From: Pseudomonadota bacterium
GTDB lineage: Bacteria; Pseudomonadota; Gammaproteobacteria; Burkholderiales; REEB80
NCBI GenBank assembly: GCA_028873515.1
Contig: JAGWIG010000016.1
Span: forward strand, 1 to 45,534
Length of the DNA stretch: 45,534 nucleotides
Direction of reading: 5' to 3'
This document shows positions 31,655 through 38,405 of the stretch, piece by piece. Positions within the stretch are counted from its first letter, which is position 1. Each line of letters starts with the position of its first letter. Position numbers and translations under genes: made by a program. The notes beneath the pieces were generated by a model, which had not been told where the DNA came from, did no database searches, and was given only the letters and a program-made list of their open reading frames with translations.

Positions 31655-32782
31655 TTATCCGTCTTTTTTTAAAGTTTGGTGATGGTTCGGTCTGTGCCTG
31701 TGCGCCTCTTTATTGTCACGTAGATGACGGTTGAGCGCCCATTCAACATGCTCGCGAACAAGAGGGGAAAAATGGTCGCAACGTGTTTTCAGGGAGTTAA
31801 CTATGGGAGTGGACGAGGGTGCATTACCAAGTGCGACTGCAAGATTGCGCAACCATTGGGTATGCCCAATGCGATAAATGGCCGTTCCGGCCATGTTTTT
31901 CATGAAAGTTGCCTCATCCCAGGCGAAAAGTTCGATTAAAGAAGCCGTATCCAATCCGTGACGTACCTGGAAATCCGGAAGAACGGCTTTTTTTGCAAAG
32001 CGGTTCCATGGGCAAATGAGTTGGCAGTCGTCGCACCCATAGATACGGTTTCCGAGGAGGGGCCTAAGGGGTTCCGGAATTGATCCTCGGTGCTCGATTG
32101 TTAGATAAGAAATACATTTTCTAGCATCAAGCCGGTATGGAGCAATGATTGCTTTGGTTGGACAAATATCAAGGCATGCCGAACAGTTGCCGCAGTGTTC
32201 ATCTGCGGGAAGATCAGACGGGAGAGGTAAATTTGTGACAAGCTCACCAAGAAAGAAAAGAGAGCCCGCTTCACGGGACAAAAGCAGGGTGTGTTTGCCA
32301 CGCCAGCCGAGTCCTGTTTTACGAGCTAATGCCACTTCCATGACTGGCGCACTATCTGTAAATACCCGAAAATTATAATCCCCAATGGCTTCATGAATTT
32401 TATCAGCGAGTTTTCCAAGTTTTTGGCGCATGACCTTGTGATAGTCGCGTCCGAGTGCGTAGCGGGAAATATAGGCAGTTTCCGGTTCACGAAGCACACT
32501 CTCGGCATCTCTGGACTCTGGCCAGTAATTTATGCGGCAGGTAATTACCGAAAGAGCACCAGGAAGGAGATCTGCAGGTTTTGTTCGAAGTGACCCATGT
32601 TTTGCCATATAATTCATTTCACCGTGGAAGCCAGAATCGAGCCAAGACATGAGACCAGCTTCTTCGTTACTCAGGTTGGTGTCAGTAATTCCAACCTGAG
32701 AAAAACCAAGGTTCTTTCCCCAGGCCCGTATGTTTTGAGCCAAGTGGATGAAATCTAAATCGGGGCCAGTTTTTTGCTGCAT
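31655..32782 (-). CDS. queG: Epoxyqueuosine reductase
   Basis: QueG reduces epoxyqueuosine to queuosine in tRNA using cobalamin and two [4Fe-4S] clusters. The 375-residue product has the cluster motifs CGNCSACLDICP and CDDCQLICPW, and FTDSAPVMEVALARKTGLGW, which contains the catalytic Asp region. PYRLDARKCISYLTIEHRG is typical too. It is divergent from tsaE, and its ATG at 32782 is only six bases from the likely tsaE start. In E. coli an nnr gene sits between queG and tsaE; here it is absent. Confidence 0.96.
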   Translation of the reverse strand: MQQKTGPDLDFIHLAQNIRAWGKNLGFSQVGITDTNLSNEEAGLMSWLDSGFHGEMNYMAKHGSLRTKPADLLPGALSVITCRINYWPESRDAESVLREPETAYISRYALGRDYHKVMRQKLGKLADKIHEAIGDYNFRVFTDSAPVMEVALARKTGLGWRGKHTLLLSREAGSLFFLGELVTNLPLPSDLPADEHCGNCSACLDICPTKAIIAPYRLDARKCISYLTIEHRGSIPEPLRPLLGNRIYGCDDCQLICPWNRFAKKAVLPDFQVRHGLDTASLIELFAWDEATFMKNMAGTAIYRIGHTQWLRNLAVALGNAPSSTPIVNSLKTRCDHFSPLVREHVEWALNRHLRDNKEAHRHRPNHHQTLKKDG

Positions 32783-32788
32783 TGGATT

Positions 32789-33256
32789 ATGAGTTCCATG
32801 GAAACATTTACCATCATACGCGAGATTTCCGGTGAGTTAGAAATGCAGCAACTGGGTTCGCGCATCGCCCGGATTTTGCATTCTGGACAGGTCATTGCAC
32901 TTAAAGGGCCTTTGGGAGTGGGAAAAACCACTCTTGTCAGAGCGATTTTGCGATCGCTTGGGGTCACAGGCGCAGTACGCAGCCCAACCTATAATTTGGT
33001 TGAAAGCTATACTGAATGCGGGTTAAACTTACACCATTTTGATTTTTATCGCTTTAGTGATCCGGTTGAGCTTGAGGAAGCGGGTTTTCGAGAACTGTTT
33101 TCTTCAGATGCAGTGTGTATCGTGGAATGGCCTGAAAATGCTGCTGAATTTATGCCAAATCCGGATTTAACAATTGAAATCCATTATGTTGGCGTTGGGC
33201 GGCAGGTTCGAATAAGTACTGATCGGGTAAACCAGGATTTGCTTGATTATATCTAA
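32789..33256 (+). CDS. tsaE: tRNA threonylcarbamoyladenosine biosynthesis ATPase
   Basis: TsaE is the ATPase that supports TsaB–TsaD in making the t6A base of ANN-decoding tRNAs. The 155-residue product has P-loop GPLGVGKTT at 40–48, then SPTYNLVESY, HHFDFYRF and IVEWPENA, the usual set. The reading frame is open to a TTG at 32774, and ATG 32789 and ATG 32798 are both possible. I prefer 32789, although no strong ribosome site is present for any of them. It leads the tsaE–amiC–mutL–miaA order shared with E. coli. Confidence 0.93.
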   Translation: MSSMETFTIIREISGELEMQQLGSRIARILHSGQVIALKGPLGVGKTTLVRAILRSLGVTGAVRSPTYNLVESYTECGLNLHHFDFYRFSDPVELEEAGFRELFSSDAVCIVEWPENAAEFMPNPDLTIEIHYVGVGRQVRISTDRVNQDLLDYI

Positions 33257-33277
33257 CTATCCTGCAGGAGTGAGCTT

Positions 33278-34495
33278 GTGCTGGGAAGAAGATGGGTTCT
33301 GCTTGTCGGTTTTTTGATTTTCATGCCTCTTTCCCATGCTGATCAACTGATTAAGGCTGTTCGTATATGGCCTTCTCCTGTTTATACCCGGATCGTCATC
33401 GAGTCACCGGCCCCTATCGTACATCATCTGTTTACGCTTCAGAGCCCCTTGCGGATAGTACTGGATTTACACGATGTGAGGCTGCAAGGACCTCTTGAAA
33501 GACTTCCTGAGGCTATTCATGCCGATAATCCAGATATTGCAGTGATACGTGTTGCCCGTTTTAATCCTGATACTGTTCGTGTTGTGATGGTTCTTAAACA
33601 TCCGGTAGAACCTGTTCTGGCCAATTTGGCTCCAGTTTCTGATTATGGCTACAGATTGATACTGGATATTTATCCTAAACTGCCTATAGATGCGATAGCA
33701 CGTTTTGCATTACCACAGACTTCCAAACGTCGTTTTCAGACTCACCTAAACTCACCTGTGAGCCATAAAACCCTTTTGTCTCATGAAATCATTGTCGCTG
33801 TTGATCCAGGCCATGGTGGAGAGGACCCCGGTGCGCATGGCGTGAATGGAACCCTGGAGAAAAATGTAACACTGGCGATTGGCCGCAAACTTCAGAGAGC
33901 TATTGATGCCATACCCGGCATGCACGCAGAGCTGACACGCACAGGTGATTATTATGTCCCACTTCAGATGCGGGTTCTTGAGGCTCATGAAATGCACGCG
34001 GATCTGTTTGTATCCATTCACGCTGATTCGCAGCCCGGTGGGCATAATGTCCAGGGTTCGACGGTATATGCTCTTTCAGAACATGGTGCAACCAGTGTCG
34101 CCGCACGACTTCTTGCAAAAAGTGAAAATGAGTCTGATCAGATTGGTGGTGTGACCCTGCCAGTGCAGGATCCGGTTTTGGCGCGAACCCTTCTTGATCT
34201 GTCTCAGACAGCCACCATCAATGATAGTCTTGAGATGGGGGCTGATGTGCTGTCTGAGCTTGATAGATTCCATTCTTTACATAATGCAAGGGTTGAACAA
34301 GCCGGTTTTGCTGTTTTGAAATCACCTGATATTCCTTCCATTCTCGTTGAAACAGCCTATATCAGCAATCCAATTGAAGAAGCGAGGCTTAACAACCCAG
34401 CGTTTCAGGAACAGGTTGCTGAAGCTATTGCCCATGGGCTGTACGATTATGTCCATTCAAATCCTTCATTTGATCGAATCTTGGCAGGTAGATAA
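33278..34495 (+). CDS. amiC: N-acetylmuramoyl-L-alanine amidase, AMIN + Amidase_3
   Basis: The enzyme cuts the peptide from glycan in peptidoglycan during daughter-cell separation. The 405-residue product starts with a signal peptide that probably ends after SHA (residue 21). An AMIN domain (about 25–130) targets the septal wall, and a C-terminal Amidase_3 domain begins near 170. Zinc ligands are seen as the His in DPGHGGEDPGA, Glu in LEKNV and His in SIHAD, with the catalytic Glu in VETAYISN. The start is GTG with AGGAG at 33266–33270. AmiB or AmiC cannot be told apart by sequence alone; amiC fits the AMIN layout. Confidence 0.92.
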   Translation: MLGRRWVLLVGFLIFMPLSHADQLIKAVRIWPSPVYTRIVIESPAPIVHHLFTLQSPLRIVLDLHDVRLQGPLERLPEAIHADNPDIAVIRVARFNPDTVRVVMVLKHPVEPVLANLAPVSDYGYRLILDIYPKLPIDAIARFALPQTSKRRFQTHLNSPVSHKTLLSHEIIVAVDPGHGGEDPGAHGVNGTLEKNVTLAIGRKLQRAIDAIPGMHAELTRTGDYYVPLQMRVLEAHEMHADLFVSIHADSQPGGHNVQGSTVYALSEHGATSVAARLLAKSENESDQIGGVTLPVQDPVLARTLLDLSQTATINDSLEMGADVLSELDRFHSLHNARVEQAGFAVLKSPDIPSILVETAYISNPIEEARLNNPAFQEQVAEAIAHGLYDYVHSNPSFDRILAGR

Positions 34496-34553
34496 AGTGC
34501 AAGGAGAAAAACTTCGCTATACTTATGGAGATTAGCTCACGGTTGATTGAATC

Positions 34554-36296
34554 ATGGCAATAATTCGTGTTCTACCTGATGTACTAATCAATCAGATTGC
34601 AGCAGGTGAAGTGGTTGATAGACCTGCGTCAGCTTTGAAGGAGCTTGTTGAAAACAGCCTCGATGCCAGTGCAACACAGATTAGTGTTGCACTTCAGGGT
34701 GGGGGTATTCAACAGCTTTGTGTTCAGGACAACGGATGTGGAATGGAGCCAAATGATCTGCTCATGGCATTATCACGTCATGCAACCAGTAAAATTGCCT
34801 CATTTGAGGATTTGGAAGGTGTTGTCAGTTTGGGGTTCCGTGGAGAAGCTCTCGCTTCAATTGCGTCTGTTTCCCGCTTAAGGCTGACAAGCCGTTCTGC
34901 AGTGGCTGCTCATGCATCGGTTATTGAGGCTGTAGGTGGTCAAATCGGGACATTGAAGCCTGCAGCGCTTGAATGTGGAACATGCGTTGATATTACTGAT
35001 ATTTATTATAATACCCCTGCTCGCCGTAAATTTCTGCGTAGTGCCAGTACCGAATATGGTCATAGTCTGGAAGTGTTTCAGCGGTTGGCCCTTTCACGAC
35101 CGGATGTGTTCTTTATACTAAGCCATAACCAGAAAATGGTGCATCGATATGCGGCATGTAGTGATGTTCCTGCAGTTCGTGCACGTGATGTGCTAGGACA
35201 GGAATTTTTCGAGTCCTCTCTGGAGGTGGATGAAAATTCTGGTATTCTAAGACTTTTTGGTTATATCTCAAAACCGTCCTATTCACACGGTGGACGGGAT
35301 GAGCAGTATATTTATGTCAATGGTCGTTTTGTCCGCGATAAACTGATAACGCATGCCATACGACAGGCCTATTCGGATGTTCTTCATCATGAACGTCATC
35401 CAGCCTATGTTCTTTATTTGACCGTTCCTCATAATGCTGTTGATGTTAATGTGCATCCTGCCAAGAACGAGGTACGATTTCGGGATTCACATGTTGTACA
35501 CCAGTTTGTATTTCATGTATTAGACAAGGTTTTGTCAGCATCATCCTTTGAGAAGTCGGGGCAGGAAAGCACAGCGATCCCTTCTTATTCAGAACCAGAT
35601 GATTTTCGTCAGCGTACGATGGAGCTTTCTTTTCCTCAGGGTGATTATCATGCCCACCAGTTTCAGGTCAAGGAGGCGTTGAAAATATCAGACTCTATCG
35701 AGAATGGAGAAGAATTTCCGCTTGGTGGCGCCATTGCCCAGCTACATGGGATTTACATTCTGTCTAGAAACGCCAGAGGATTGGTCATCGTTGATATGCA
35801 TGCTGCACATGAGCGAGTTGTATATGAACGCTTGAAGCATGCAATGGACACCAGAGAAGTGCTTATGCAGTCATTATTGTTGCCCTTGCCTTTTGTGGCC
35901 ACACCTCAGGAAGTAATTACGGCTGAAACTCATTCTGAATTGCTGTCTGCAATCGGATTCGAGTTGGCCATCCTTTCACCTGCAACACTGGCAGTTCGTG
36001 CTGTTCCTGCATTACTAGCCGATTCAGATGCCATTTCTCTCGCAAGGGATGTTTTGTCAGAAATTGAAAATTTTGGTGCTTCACATGTAGTTGATGAACA
36101 GCGTAACAAGTTGTTAGCGACAATGGCCTGTCATGGATCAATTCGGGCTAATCGTGAACTGGCGGTTAGTGAAATGAATGCCCTGTTAAGGGATATGGAG
36201 GAAACTGAGCGTTCAGGACAATGTAACCATGGCCGGCCGACTTGGCATGAGTTTACGATTTCAATGTTAGACAGGCTGTTCATGAGGGGGGAATGA
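34554..36296 (+). CDS. mutL: DNA mismatch repair protein MutL
   Basis: MutL links MutS recognition to strand incision in mismatch repair. The 580-residue product has the GHKL ATPase motifs ENSLDA, DNGCGM, TSKI and GFRGEAL in the first 110 residues. The C-terminal domain has the endonuclease-type motif set: DMHAAHERVVYE in place of the usual DQHA-x2-E-x4-E, ACHGSIRA, and CNHGRPT. So it is probably a nicking MutL of the kind used where MutH is absent. Its stop overlaps the miaA start (ATGA). Confidence 0.96.
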   Translation: MAIIRVLPDVLINQIAAGEVVDRPASALKELVENSLDASATQISVALQGGGIQQLCVQDNGCGMEPNDLLMALSRHATSKIASFEDLEGVVSLGFRGEALASIASVSRLRLTSRSAVAAHASVIEAVGGQIGTLKPAALECGTCVDITDIYYNTPARRKFLRSASTEYGHSLEVFQRLALSRPDVFFILSHNQKMVHRYAACSDVPAVRARDVLGQEFFESSLEVDENSGILRLFGYISKPSYSHGGRDEQYIYVNGRFVRDKLITHAIRQAYSDVLHHERHPAYVLYLTVPHNAVDVNVHPAKNEVRFRDSHVVHQFVFHVLDKVLSASSFEKSGQESTAIPSYSEPDDFRQRTMELSFPQGDYHAHQFQVKEALKISDSIENGEEFPLGGAIAQLHGIYILSRNARGLVIVDMHAAHERVVYERLKHAMDTREVLMQSLLLPLPFVATPQEVITAETHSELLSAIGFELAILSPATLAVRAVPALLADSDAISLARDVLSEIENFGASHVVDEQRNKLLATMACHGSIRANRELAVSEMNALLRDMEETERSGQCNHGRPTWHEFTISMLDRLFMRGE

Positions 36297-37231
36297 TGTC
36301 CCTTCCAGTTGTCATGCTTATGGGGCCTACCGCAGTCGGGAAGACTGAAGTAGCCCTTCATATTGCTGAGACATTTCCAGTTGAGATTGTTAGCGTGGAT
36401 TCAGCCAACGTCTATCTGGGTATGGATATTGGTACAGCGAAGCCAGATGTGATTATGCGCCAAAGTATCAGACATCATCTGATCGATTGCATTGACCCAA
36501 CAGAATCTTACTCTGCTGCACGTTTTCGTCATGATGCTTTGGAAATTATTGATGCTATCAGGTCGAGGGGAAAAATCCCGCTTCTAGTAGGGGGTACATT
36601 TCTTTATTTTAAAGTGCTTCAGGAAGGGATTCATACTTTGCCTGATTCTGATAGAGAAGTAAGGATGATGATTGAGAATGAGGCAAAGCTGTTAGGCTGG
36701 CCGGCAATGCATGCGCGGTTGCAATCAATTGATCCAGTTACTGCTGCCAGACTGAATGTACATGATGGACAACGTATCGGAAGGGCATTGGAAATTTATG
36801 TACAAAGTGGGCAGTCTATGAGTGTTTGGTTAGCCAAACCGAAATTTGTGGTACCGGATTTTCCGGTTTTACGGATTGCGCTTGAACCCTCAGATCGAGG
36901 CCATCTTCATGATCGAATAGCGAATCGTTTCAGAAAGATGCTCGCTTCAGGTCTTGTCAATGAAGTTGAACGGCTGAGGCAAACTTACGTTTTGAAGGAA
37001 TCTATGCCGAGCATGCGCTGTGTCGGTTACAGACAGGTCTGGAAATATCTTGAAGGATTTATTGGGAAAAATGAGCTGGAAGAATCCGGTATCGCAGCAA
37101 CACGGCAGCTCGCCAGGCGGCAGTTAACTTGGCTTCGATCAATGGATCAGGTTAACCGGGTTAACTGTTTTGCTGAGGATTTGGGTAAGGATGTTTGTAA
37201 GCTTGTACAAAAGGCGGTTGAGAATGCATAG
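36293..37231 (+). CDS. miaA: tRNA dimethylallyltransferase
   Basis: MiaA adds the dimethylallyl group to A37 of tRNAs that read UNN codons. The 312-residue product has P-loop GPTAVGKT at about 11–18, DSANVYLGMDIGTAKP and LLVGGTFLYFK, then the SMRCVGYRQVW segment and the RRQLTWLRS tail. It overlaps mutL by four bases, so the two are coupled. No hfq follows, unlike in E. coli; an AT-rich gap does. Confidence 0.96.
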   Translation: MMSLPVVMLMGPTAVGKTEVALHIAETFPVEIVSVDSANVYLGMDIGTAKPDVIMRQSIRHHLIDCIDPTESYSAARFRHDALEIIDAIRSRGKIPLLVGGTFLYFKVLQEGIHTLPDSDREVRMMIENEAKLLGWPAMHARLQSIDPVTAARLNVHDGQRIGRALEIYVQSGQSMSVWLAKPKFVVPDFPVLRIALEPSDRGHLHDRIANRFRKMLASGLVNEVERLRQTYVLKESMPSMRCVGYRQVWKYLEGFIGKNELEESGIAATRQLARRQLTWLRSMDQVNRVNCFAEDLGKDVCKLVQKAVENA

Positions 37232-37268
37232 AAATTGTAAACGAATTGAAGCCGAAATTTCGAGTTAG

Positions 37269-37277
37269 TTATCCACA
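37269..37277 (+). promoter_or_regulatory. Perfect DnaA box
   Basis: TTATCCACA matches the strong E. coli R1/R4 DnaA box exactly. It is 38 bases after the miaA stop. Confidence 0.6.
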
Positions 37278-37458
37278 GAATCCCTAAGCGATATCAGATA
37301 CAAAAAACCCCTCACTGAGAGGCGTGAACAATAAAATCAAGTATTTTTATTTTACTATAAATTACCGATAGTTAAATTATAAAAAAAGGTAATTATCCTG
37401 AGGAGTTCTCCCAGTGGTTTTGGAGCTAGAATTCAAATGAAATCAGAAATGTGCAATT

Positions 37459-37479
37459 CTATGCACAGCGTTATCCACA
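37459..37479 (+). promoter_or_regulatory. Paired DnaA boxes (one mismatch and one perfect)
   Basis: CTATGCACA (37459–37467) and TTATCCACA (37471–37479) start 12 bases apart in the same direction, a spacing near one helical turn that suits side-by-side DnaA binding. The AT-rich block begins just after. Confidence 0.55.
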
Positions 37480-37799
37480 ACTTGTAATAGTAAATAGAAT
37501 TAAGGAACTTTTTTATAATATTTTTTAATTTTTAGTGATGCCGTAAGAATGGAGTAAGGTTAACATAAATTTCTTGACTAGATCCAGTATTTTTTTAAAA
37601 AAAATAATACTTTTTAACTTATTGATTTTTAATAATGTTATTTGAAAGTGAAAGATGATTTTTTTTGGTCTCGTTTTAAATATCTTTAAAAGGGGGATAG
37701 GTTTTTTTTATAGATGGAACAGGTTAAGGTATACAGTCTTGCCTTATCTTGCCTGGGCGTCTAAAGTTCGGCTATTGTGAAACTTAAGGAGATTGGAAA

Positions 37800-38405
37800 T
37801 TGTTGTCGATCATCGCGGCTGCAGGCTGGCCAATTTGGCCACTTATCTTTGCTTCTGTAATTGCGCTTGCGATCATAGGTGAGAGGCTGTGGTCCCTTAA
37901 ACCAGGAGAAATCGCTCCTCTAGGCCTTTTTAGAGAAATTGAGGAGGCAGTAGATAAAGGCAAGGTTAATGATGAGATGCTGGATGCTCTAACCAGACAC
38001 TCGCCCCTGGGAAGAGTATTGGCAGCGGGCCTTCGTAATATCAGTGCGTCTCGTGAGGTGATGAAGGATGCAATTGAGGATGCCGGTAGGGTTGAAGCTT
38101 ATCTTTTGGAGCGTTATCTCCCAACACTTGGCACTATTGCCTCCGTTAGCCCATTGCTTGGATTGCTAGGAACGGTGATTGGCATGGTTGATATTTTTGG
38201 TGCATTAACACCACAGGGCTCTAGTCCGGCTGTTCTTGCACAGGGAATTTCAGTGGCATTGTACAACACGGCAATGGGGCTTATCGTTGCTATACCAAGT
38301 CTTATATTTTATCGGCATTTTCGTCAAAAGGTATCAGGGATTGTTTTGGATATGGAGACGCAGGCTGTGCGTCTTGTGGAAGTTGTGGACAAAAAACGGA
38401 ATTAA
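37800..38405 (+). CDS. exbB: MotA/TolQ/ExbB proton channel family protein
   Basis: ExbB-type proteins form, with ExbD, the proton channel that powers TonB or Tol-like work across the envelope. The 201-residue product has three membrane segments at about 10–28, 105–130 and 145–170, with SPLLGLLGTVIGM and the SVALYNTAMGLIVAIP stretch typical of the family. The start is TTG with AAGGAGA 37786–37792 ahead. TonB is not adjacent, so the partner (TonB or another) is unknown. It leads a tight run through lpxK, Trm112, kdsB, adk and the acyltransferase gene. Confidence 0.92.
   Translation: MLSIIAAAGWPIWPLIFASVIALAIIGERLWSLKPGEIAPLGLFREIEEAVDKGKVNDEMLDALTRHSPLGRVLAAGLRNISASREVMKDAIEDAGRVEAYLLERYLPTLGTIASVSPLLGLLGTVIGMVDIFGALTPQGSSPAVLAQGISVALYNTAMGLIVAIPSLIFYRHFRQKVSGIVLDMETQAVRLVEVVDKKRN

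Follow-up and report, generated by a model that had tools for sequence, protein, structure and literature searches.

The window analysed here is a stretch of 45,534 nucleotides, contig C237 among the 275 contigs of a 3.42-Mb assembly (G000). The site of interest within it is the 568-base intergenic region between miaA (36293-37231), its left neighbour, and an exbB/tolQ-like gene on the plus strand (37800-38405, TTG start), the first gene of the series exbB-exbD-lpxK-kdsB-adk. Judged by its genes, the window probably comes from a betaproteobacterium. The miaA-exbB region has a GC content of 29.8% and contains three DnaA boxes, all on the plus strand: box D (TTATCCACA, 37269..37277) and box B (TTATCCACA, 37471..37479) are exact, and box A (CTATGCACA, 37459..37467) is a near-match. 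Box D lies 190 bp upstream of box A, start to start, and box A stands 3 bp before box B. The original prediction of two perfect boxes and a near-match (at 37269, 37471 and 37459), two of them 12 bases apart, was thus borne out, as was that of a long AT-rich block beside them, which spans 37501..37720 and is 77.7% AT.

The AT-rich block includes a perfect IHF consensus on the minus strand (37615-37627) that is not found in G001, the single genome of the same genus that was compared (1.9 Mb). Alignment of the two genomes showed a common block at 37543..37609 (GTAAGG-TTAACATA ... TAGATCCAGT, with a T-run), the words of which occurred in none of the 88 other exbB upstream regions among the 90 compared. 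A possible exbB promoter, TTGCCT-17-TAAAGT (37739..37767, plus strand), was read by eye and is kept in G001; a promoter scan, which returned 3 weak matches against 2.5 expected, did not list it. Of the 90 upstream regions, 18 have the word CTAAAGTT no more than 105 bp from exbB. A terminator scan gave 4 matches where 0.3 were expected, an Rfam search found no RNA element at the miaA-exbB site, and a repeat search at the site recovered only the two boxes and AT-rich pairs. At the far left of the window, positions 77-148 matched a group II intron RNA (48.1 bits versus a gathering score of 40).

Single DnaA boxes were not enriched in the window, which contained 4 matches to TTWTNCACA (5.0 expected) and 11 matches to TTATCCACA with at most one mismatch (12.7 expected). 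The exact sequence TTATCCACA occurred twice in the whole window, both times on the plus strand, and two exact boxes inside 568 bases were found in none of 300 shuffles of the window, indicating that the cluster is unusual. Stronger evidence that the observation is real came from G001, where the syntenic intergenic region, with the same neighbours, contained TTATCCACA, TTATGCACA and TTATCCACA in the same order and orientation as in the window. The last two of these were again 12 bp apart; box A was TTATGCACA and box D was located at -185 relative to box A. Much of the interval between the boxes had diverged between the two genomes.

These boxes had been read as either a replication origin or a strong DnaA-controlled site. 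The first part of this reading failed because the GC skew keeps its sign across the site, whereas the second was upheld by the comparisons below, at the level of sites and their arrangement. Skew of the plus strand was positive in all 45 of the 1-kb bins of the window. At third codon positions it was +0.226 in plus-strand genes and +0.232 in minus-strand genes to the left of the site, and +0.268 in plus-strand genes to the right, where the single minus-strand gene gave 0.017; since the values were alike in genes of both orientations, the skew follows the replication strand, with no switch at the site. A hand count of 87 G and 65 C in the M48 gene, made with the original prediction, was exact and the gene is M48, and the caution drawn from it, that the direction of the forks did not favour an origin at 37.5 kb, was right. 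All 28 of the 5-kb bins of the 139-kb contig around the syntenic site in G001 were also positive, two of them at +0.003 and +0.004.

Cumulative GC skew, which had been proposed as a check, placed the minimum elsewhere, beside lgt in both genomes. On the dnaA contig of G000 (C157) it fell near 105 kb, approximately 68 kb to the right of dnaA and just after a dip in GC content at 103.5-104 kb, and on the dnaA contig of G001 (C22, of which 138 kb were read) near 256-258 kb (L134). Three DnaA boxes were located at 256949-257048 of the G001 contig, approximately 64 kb to the right of dnaA, between lgt and a 131-aa frame that is followed by a flagellar rod gene, with ilvD beyond lgt; the matching spot in G000 contained only TTATGCACA and CTATACACA. 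In both genomes of the genus this local minimum lies beside lgt, some 64-68 kb from dnaA, which suggests that the origin has shifted away from that gene. A richer cluster of boxes had been expected next to dnaA and was found in neither: G000 had no TTWTNCACA box upstream of dnaA (among the boxes of L034), and G001 had one TTATCCACA approximately 120 bp upstream, by position. An origin or second origin at the miaA-exbB site would fit the box cluster adjoining an AT-rich block and the lack of a strict box upstream of dnaA in G000, but the skew did not change at the site or at its syntenic place in G001, and the minima were found next to lgt, where G001 also has three boxes. This candidate was rejected as highly improbable.

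The region upstream of exbB (at most 900 bp) was then compared in 90 genomes of the window's order, including the window and G001. These were selected by ExbB similarity only, as the best 30 loci of a 60-genome search and the next 60 by rank of a 180-genome search, and short upstream regions were kept in the counts (L195, 99 bp; L106, 450 bp; L108, 477 bp). A core of three boxes was scored as the number of mismatches to TTATNCACA-N3-TTATCCACA-N5-TGTGGATAA. Sixty-four of the 90 regions had a core with six or fewer mismatches, and 270 shuffles never gave fewer than nine. When the call was widened to accept box A with at most two mismatches together with box B with at most one, the element was present in 68 of the 90 regions, representing 28 of the 34 families, and there was no element in the other 22. 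Box B was exact in 61 of the 88 regions from outside the genus; among these 61, box A was at a gap of 3 bp in 53 (the next most frequent gap occurred in 7 regions) and box C at a gap of 5 bp in 53 (the next most frequent in 2). A 19-base core pattern, searched for in whole genomes with at most two mismatches, matched 164 of 180 genomes, compared to 1 of 180 for the reversed control. At two mismatches it had no match in G000 and one in G001, where at three mismatches the control also matched once.

In the full layout, box D stands about 166 bp before box A, box B follows A after 3 bp, and an inverted box C follows B after 5 bp. Neither box D nor the IHF and Fis sites had been used to select the upstream regions, and all three were found at preferred distances from box A. 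Box D (at most one mismatch) was located at -160..-170 in 38 of the 68 elements, and at -175..-181 in 6 more. The IHF consensus (at most one mismatch, one strand) was present at -70..-110 in 44 of the 68 elements, compared to 2.65 on average and 7 at most in shuffles, with 41 matches at -95..-98. An exact Fis consensus occurred at -64..-67 in 32 of the 68, for which shuffles gave 0.72 on average and 3 at most. An ACTTA word approximately 22 bp before box A, possibly the site of a further factor, was seen in 36 of the 68 elements and once in a control interval.

Association of the element with miaA was considered and rejected: 24 of 28 miaA loci from outside the genus had no box and the other four had a single relaxed box, which indicates that the element follows exbB. 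It has one orientation toward exbB, and box A is mostly 120-250 bp upstream of the gene. These features could suggest a DnaA-dependent promoter switch, in which DnaA on boxes A-B and D would repress or activate exbB-exbD-lpxK-kdsB-adk and so tie envelope synthesis to the replication cycle, the geometry of the boxes being only the way DnaA sits. However, the full range of distances to exbB, -78 to -581, is wide for such a role. A fixed position on the chromosome was not found: in the 7 genomes (of 20) for which it was computed, the distance between exbB and dnaA ranged over 0.41-0.98 of an arm.

The core of this element resembles one described in E. coli, in which the DnaA-reactivating sites DARS1 and DARS2 share boxes I-III with equal spacing, box I being opposite to II and III (PMC5742627), and in which the head-to-head pair that includes inverted box I is reported to be essential (PMC10380432). 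The window copy keeps boxes D, A and B. Its boxes A and B (CTATGCACA-GCG-TTATCCACA) are head-to-tail with 3 bp between them, as DARS boxes III and II are, and occupy the places of these two boxes, box B being identical in G001. The place of the inverted box C, which corresponds to box I (37485..37493, minus strand), holds TAATAGTAA, with 5 mismatches of 9, and box C of G001 likewise has 5 of 9, so that this box is lost in both. The place of the relatives' IHF site (37358..37374, minus strand) is degenerate in the window copy, differing from the consensus at 2-3 positions, so that no match with one mismatch or fewer was found there; this place is lost in G001 as well. There was no Fis consensus in the window copy, and the only Fis match in G001 sits at -7, away from the relatives' place. 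Alone, the window copy scores 6 on the core scale.

Box C was also lost in all four sampled genomes of family f32 and in one of f18 (G108), and was weak in another genome (G027). Across all loci, each f32 genome has between 2 and 7 core sites. In G108 no other core was found at two mismatches, and therefore the loss of box C cannot in every case be attributed to a backup copy. The window copy lacks inverted box I, a defining feature of DARS, and should not be classified as a DARS; it is the same-place counterpart of the DARS-like elements of its relatives. That D, A and B are kept in both genomes while their surroundings diverge speaks against plain decay.

Core sites are not confined to exbB. 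Twenty sites away from exbB were picked, by core, from the whole-genome matches listed, and 10 of these lie between hemE and priA (for example L143, L145 and L158), the genes being named by Pfam in L143 and by protein similarity to L143 in the other nine. In all 10, box D is TTATGCACA, located at -168..-179, and an IHF consensus is present at -97..-99; 7 also have a Fis consensus at -65 or -66. The occurrence of the same layout between these two genes argues against a switch specific to the exbB promoter. Among the other 10 picked sites, three have an IHF consensus near -97 (L153, L155 and L160) and seven do not (L147-L152 and L154; families f18, f23 and f29). Both genomes of the window's genus have a second core-like site, between genes for SHMT and an M24 peptidase, at G001:C15:119864 (L163, score 3) and G000:C13:106847 (L164, score 4). 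The two genes were named in G001, and G000 has frames of similar size. An IHF consensus is located at -99 in both genomes, with no strict Fis consensus at the site.

We consider it probable (roughly 0.7) that the boxes of the window are all that this genus has retained, at this place, of a DnaA-regulatory element of DARS2 type, which the order keeps upstream of exbB. The architecture of this element, its conservation, its losses and its second copy can be read from the sequences directly, and the core in 64 of the 90 regions, the sharp gaps of 3 and 5 bp and the recurrence of IHF, Fis and box D sites at preferred distances were counted in favour of this interpretation, as were the same core geometry in DARS1 and DARS2, the repeats between hemE and priA, and the SHMT-M24 site kept in both genomes. 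Counted against it were the 22 upstream regions without the element, the lack of a fixed distance between exbB and dnaA, and the loss of box C in G108 without another core.

Binding of DnaA, IHF and Fis, and each reaction step that would follow, is predicted from matches to consensus sites. On the full element, DnaA would occupy box A (III), box B (II) and inverted box C (I). The DNA would be bent by IHF at approximately -97 and by a Fis-like protein at approximately -66, and box D, at approximately -166, would become part of the complex. If events follow the E. coli pattern, ADP would then be released by the two DnaA molecules bound head-to-head on boxes II and I, and the ADP-free DnaA would rebind ATP for the next initiation. 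The window copy would be a DARS2-type element in reduced form, still able to bind DnaA but probably unable to reactivate it, a prediction drawn from the absence of box C and of the IHF and Fis sites together with the retention of D, A and B. With its head-to-tail double box and distant box, this copy may hold DnaA or tune transcription of exbB-exbD-lpxK rather than reactivate DnaA, and reactivation in this genus would then fall to the second copy between SHMT and M24.

More tentatively, and with well under even confidence, we propose that in a whole order outside the close relatives of E. coli DnaA is reactivated at conserved loci of DARS2 type, located upstream of exbB-lpxK and, in many of the genomes, also in the hemE-priA interval. 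In certain lineages that have additional core copies, namely the window's genus and f32, the exbB copy would have shed box I to become a plain DnaA switch on an envelope operon. The case of G108, with box C lost and no other core found, argues against a simple rule of loss with backup. The DARS2 plan, with boxes I-III, IHF and Fis at fixed distances, is found beside one gene in 28 of the 34 sampled families of another order. If the element works as proposed, DnaA reactivation could be tested outside E. coli on spacing variants that occur in nature, and genomes that have lost box I at this place, as in the window, would separate DnaA binding from DnaA reactivation.

DARS-like sequences beyond E. 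coli are not new as such. The DARS2 core was described in 2014 as conserved in γ-proteobacteria related to E. coli (PMC4245941), and a 2023 review states that many proteobacteria have sequences resembling DARS1 and DARS2 (PMC10380432). A literature search, mostly without subscription papers, found no description of a DARS at exbB or between hemE and priA, and the novelty claimed here concerns where the element lies, the complete arrangement of its boxes with IHF and Fis sites, and the reduced copy.

For comparison with characterized systems, DnaA-bound loci of E. coli (tabulated in PMC11317965) were read from MG1655 and scored on the same core scale, rne and rpoH being left out. DARS1 scored 2, DARS2 4, polA 6, datA 7, nrdA and purH 8 each, and nrdD, oriC/mioC and the dnaA region (dnaA/dnaN) 10. 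Box C had 5-7 mismatches in datA, polA, nrdA, purH, nrdD, oriC/mioC and dnaA. The score of 6 for the double box at the polA promoter equals that of the window copy, which counts against the DARS2-type interpretation and in favour of a promoter switch. The polA, nrdA and purH promoters all have two tandem boxes 3 bp apart, as do A and B in the window, and DnaA in E. coli is reported to prefer double boxes 2-3 bp apart, several of them at promoters (PMC11317965). Unlike these promoters, the relatives of the window also have an inverted box, together with IHF, Fis and D sites at fixed places; the double boxes compared at E. coli promoters lack box C and do not need C, IHF and Fis at fixed positions. 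On this evidence we regard a promoter switch as rather unlikely.

Features are also shared with datA, including same-direction boxes, IHF, a 3-bp double box and the neighbouring gene cluster. In E. coli, the 3-bp double box of datA is accompanied by an IHF site and, 162 bp away, by a further box. At a datA-like site, head-to-tail DnaA would hydrolyse ATP with IHF, or DnaA would be titrated, and the three boxes of the window are head-to-tail and all point one way, as the essential datA boxes are described to do. However, the relatives carry an inverted box C, which datA lacks at the DARS spacing, and the double box precedes the IHF site in datA, whereas box D precedes it in the order's element. 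No good IHF site was found between boxes D and A of the window; a perfect IHF consensus, at 37615, lies outside that interval and is absent from G001. A datA-like role appears very unlikely, even though E. coli datA flanks the opposite end of the cluster that runs from queG to miaA. That cluster (queG ... amidase, mutL, miaA) spans 31655-37231 in the window and, with datA, NC_000913.3 4392360-4400202 in E. coli (L227); the correspondence is perhaps a coincidence.

DARS1, which is upstream of uvrB, has the same core spacing and orientation as the order's element, but no IHF-like site was found within the scanned flanks of DARS1. The closer comparison is with DARS2, which is reported to need IHF at IBS1-2 and Fis at FBS2-3, IBS1 and IBS2 being 3 bp apart (PMC4245941). 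This published gap identified the match at L142 3136 (score 4) as the DARS2 core, with a pair of IHF-like 13-mers (-87 and -71) that lie on the side of box III and are separated by 3 bp, and a Fis consensus at -125; a second match at L142 3452 (score 6, IHF-like site at -97) was rejected since the 3-bp gap fits 3136. Several differences are evident. DARS2 is upstream of mutH rather than at exbB or between hemE and priA, and the distance of DARS from oriC is reported to be kept among E. coli strains (PMC4585315), unlike that of the exbB element from dnaA. The Fis site lies between IHF and the core in the order and beyond IHF in E. coli, and this opposite order, together with the lack of a strict Fis site at SHMT-M24, counts against a DARS2-type element. 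The order's element adds a same-direction box D near -166, and the window copy lacks box I and the IHF and Fis sites. The likeness lies in the arrangement of the core, III-3-II-5-I with box I inverted, and in its flank: IHF is on the box III side and on the same strand, at -87 in E. coli and approximately -97 in the order, one helical turn apart, and a Fis consensus is also present. The order's element has IHF and Fis sites, as consensus matches, at fixed distances from the three boxes.
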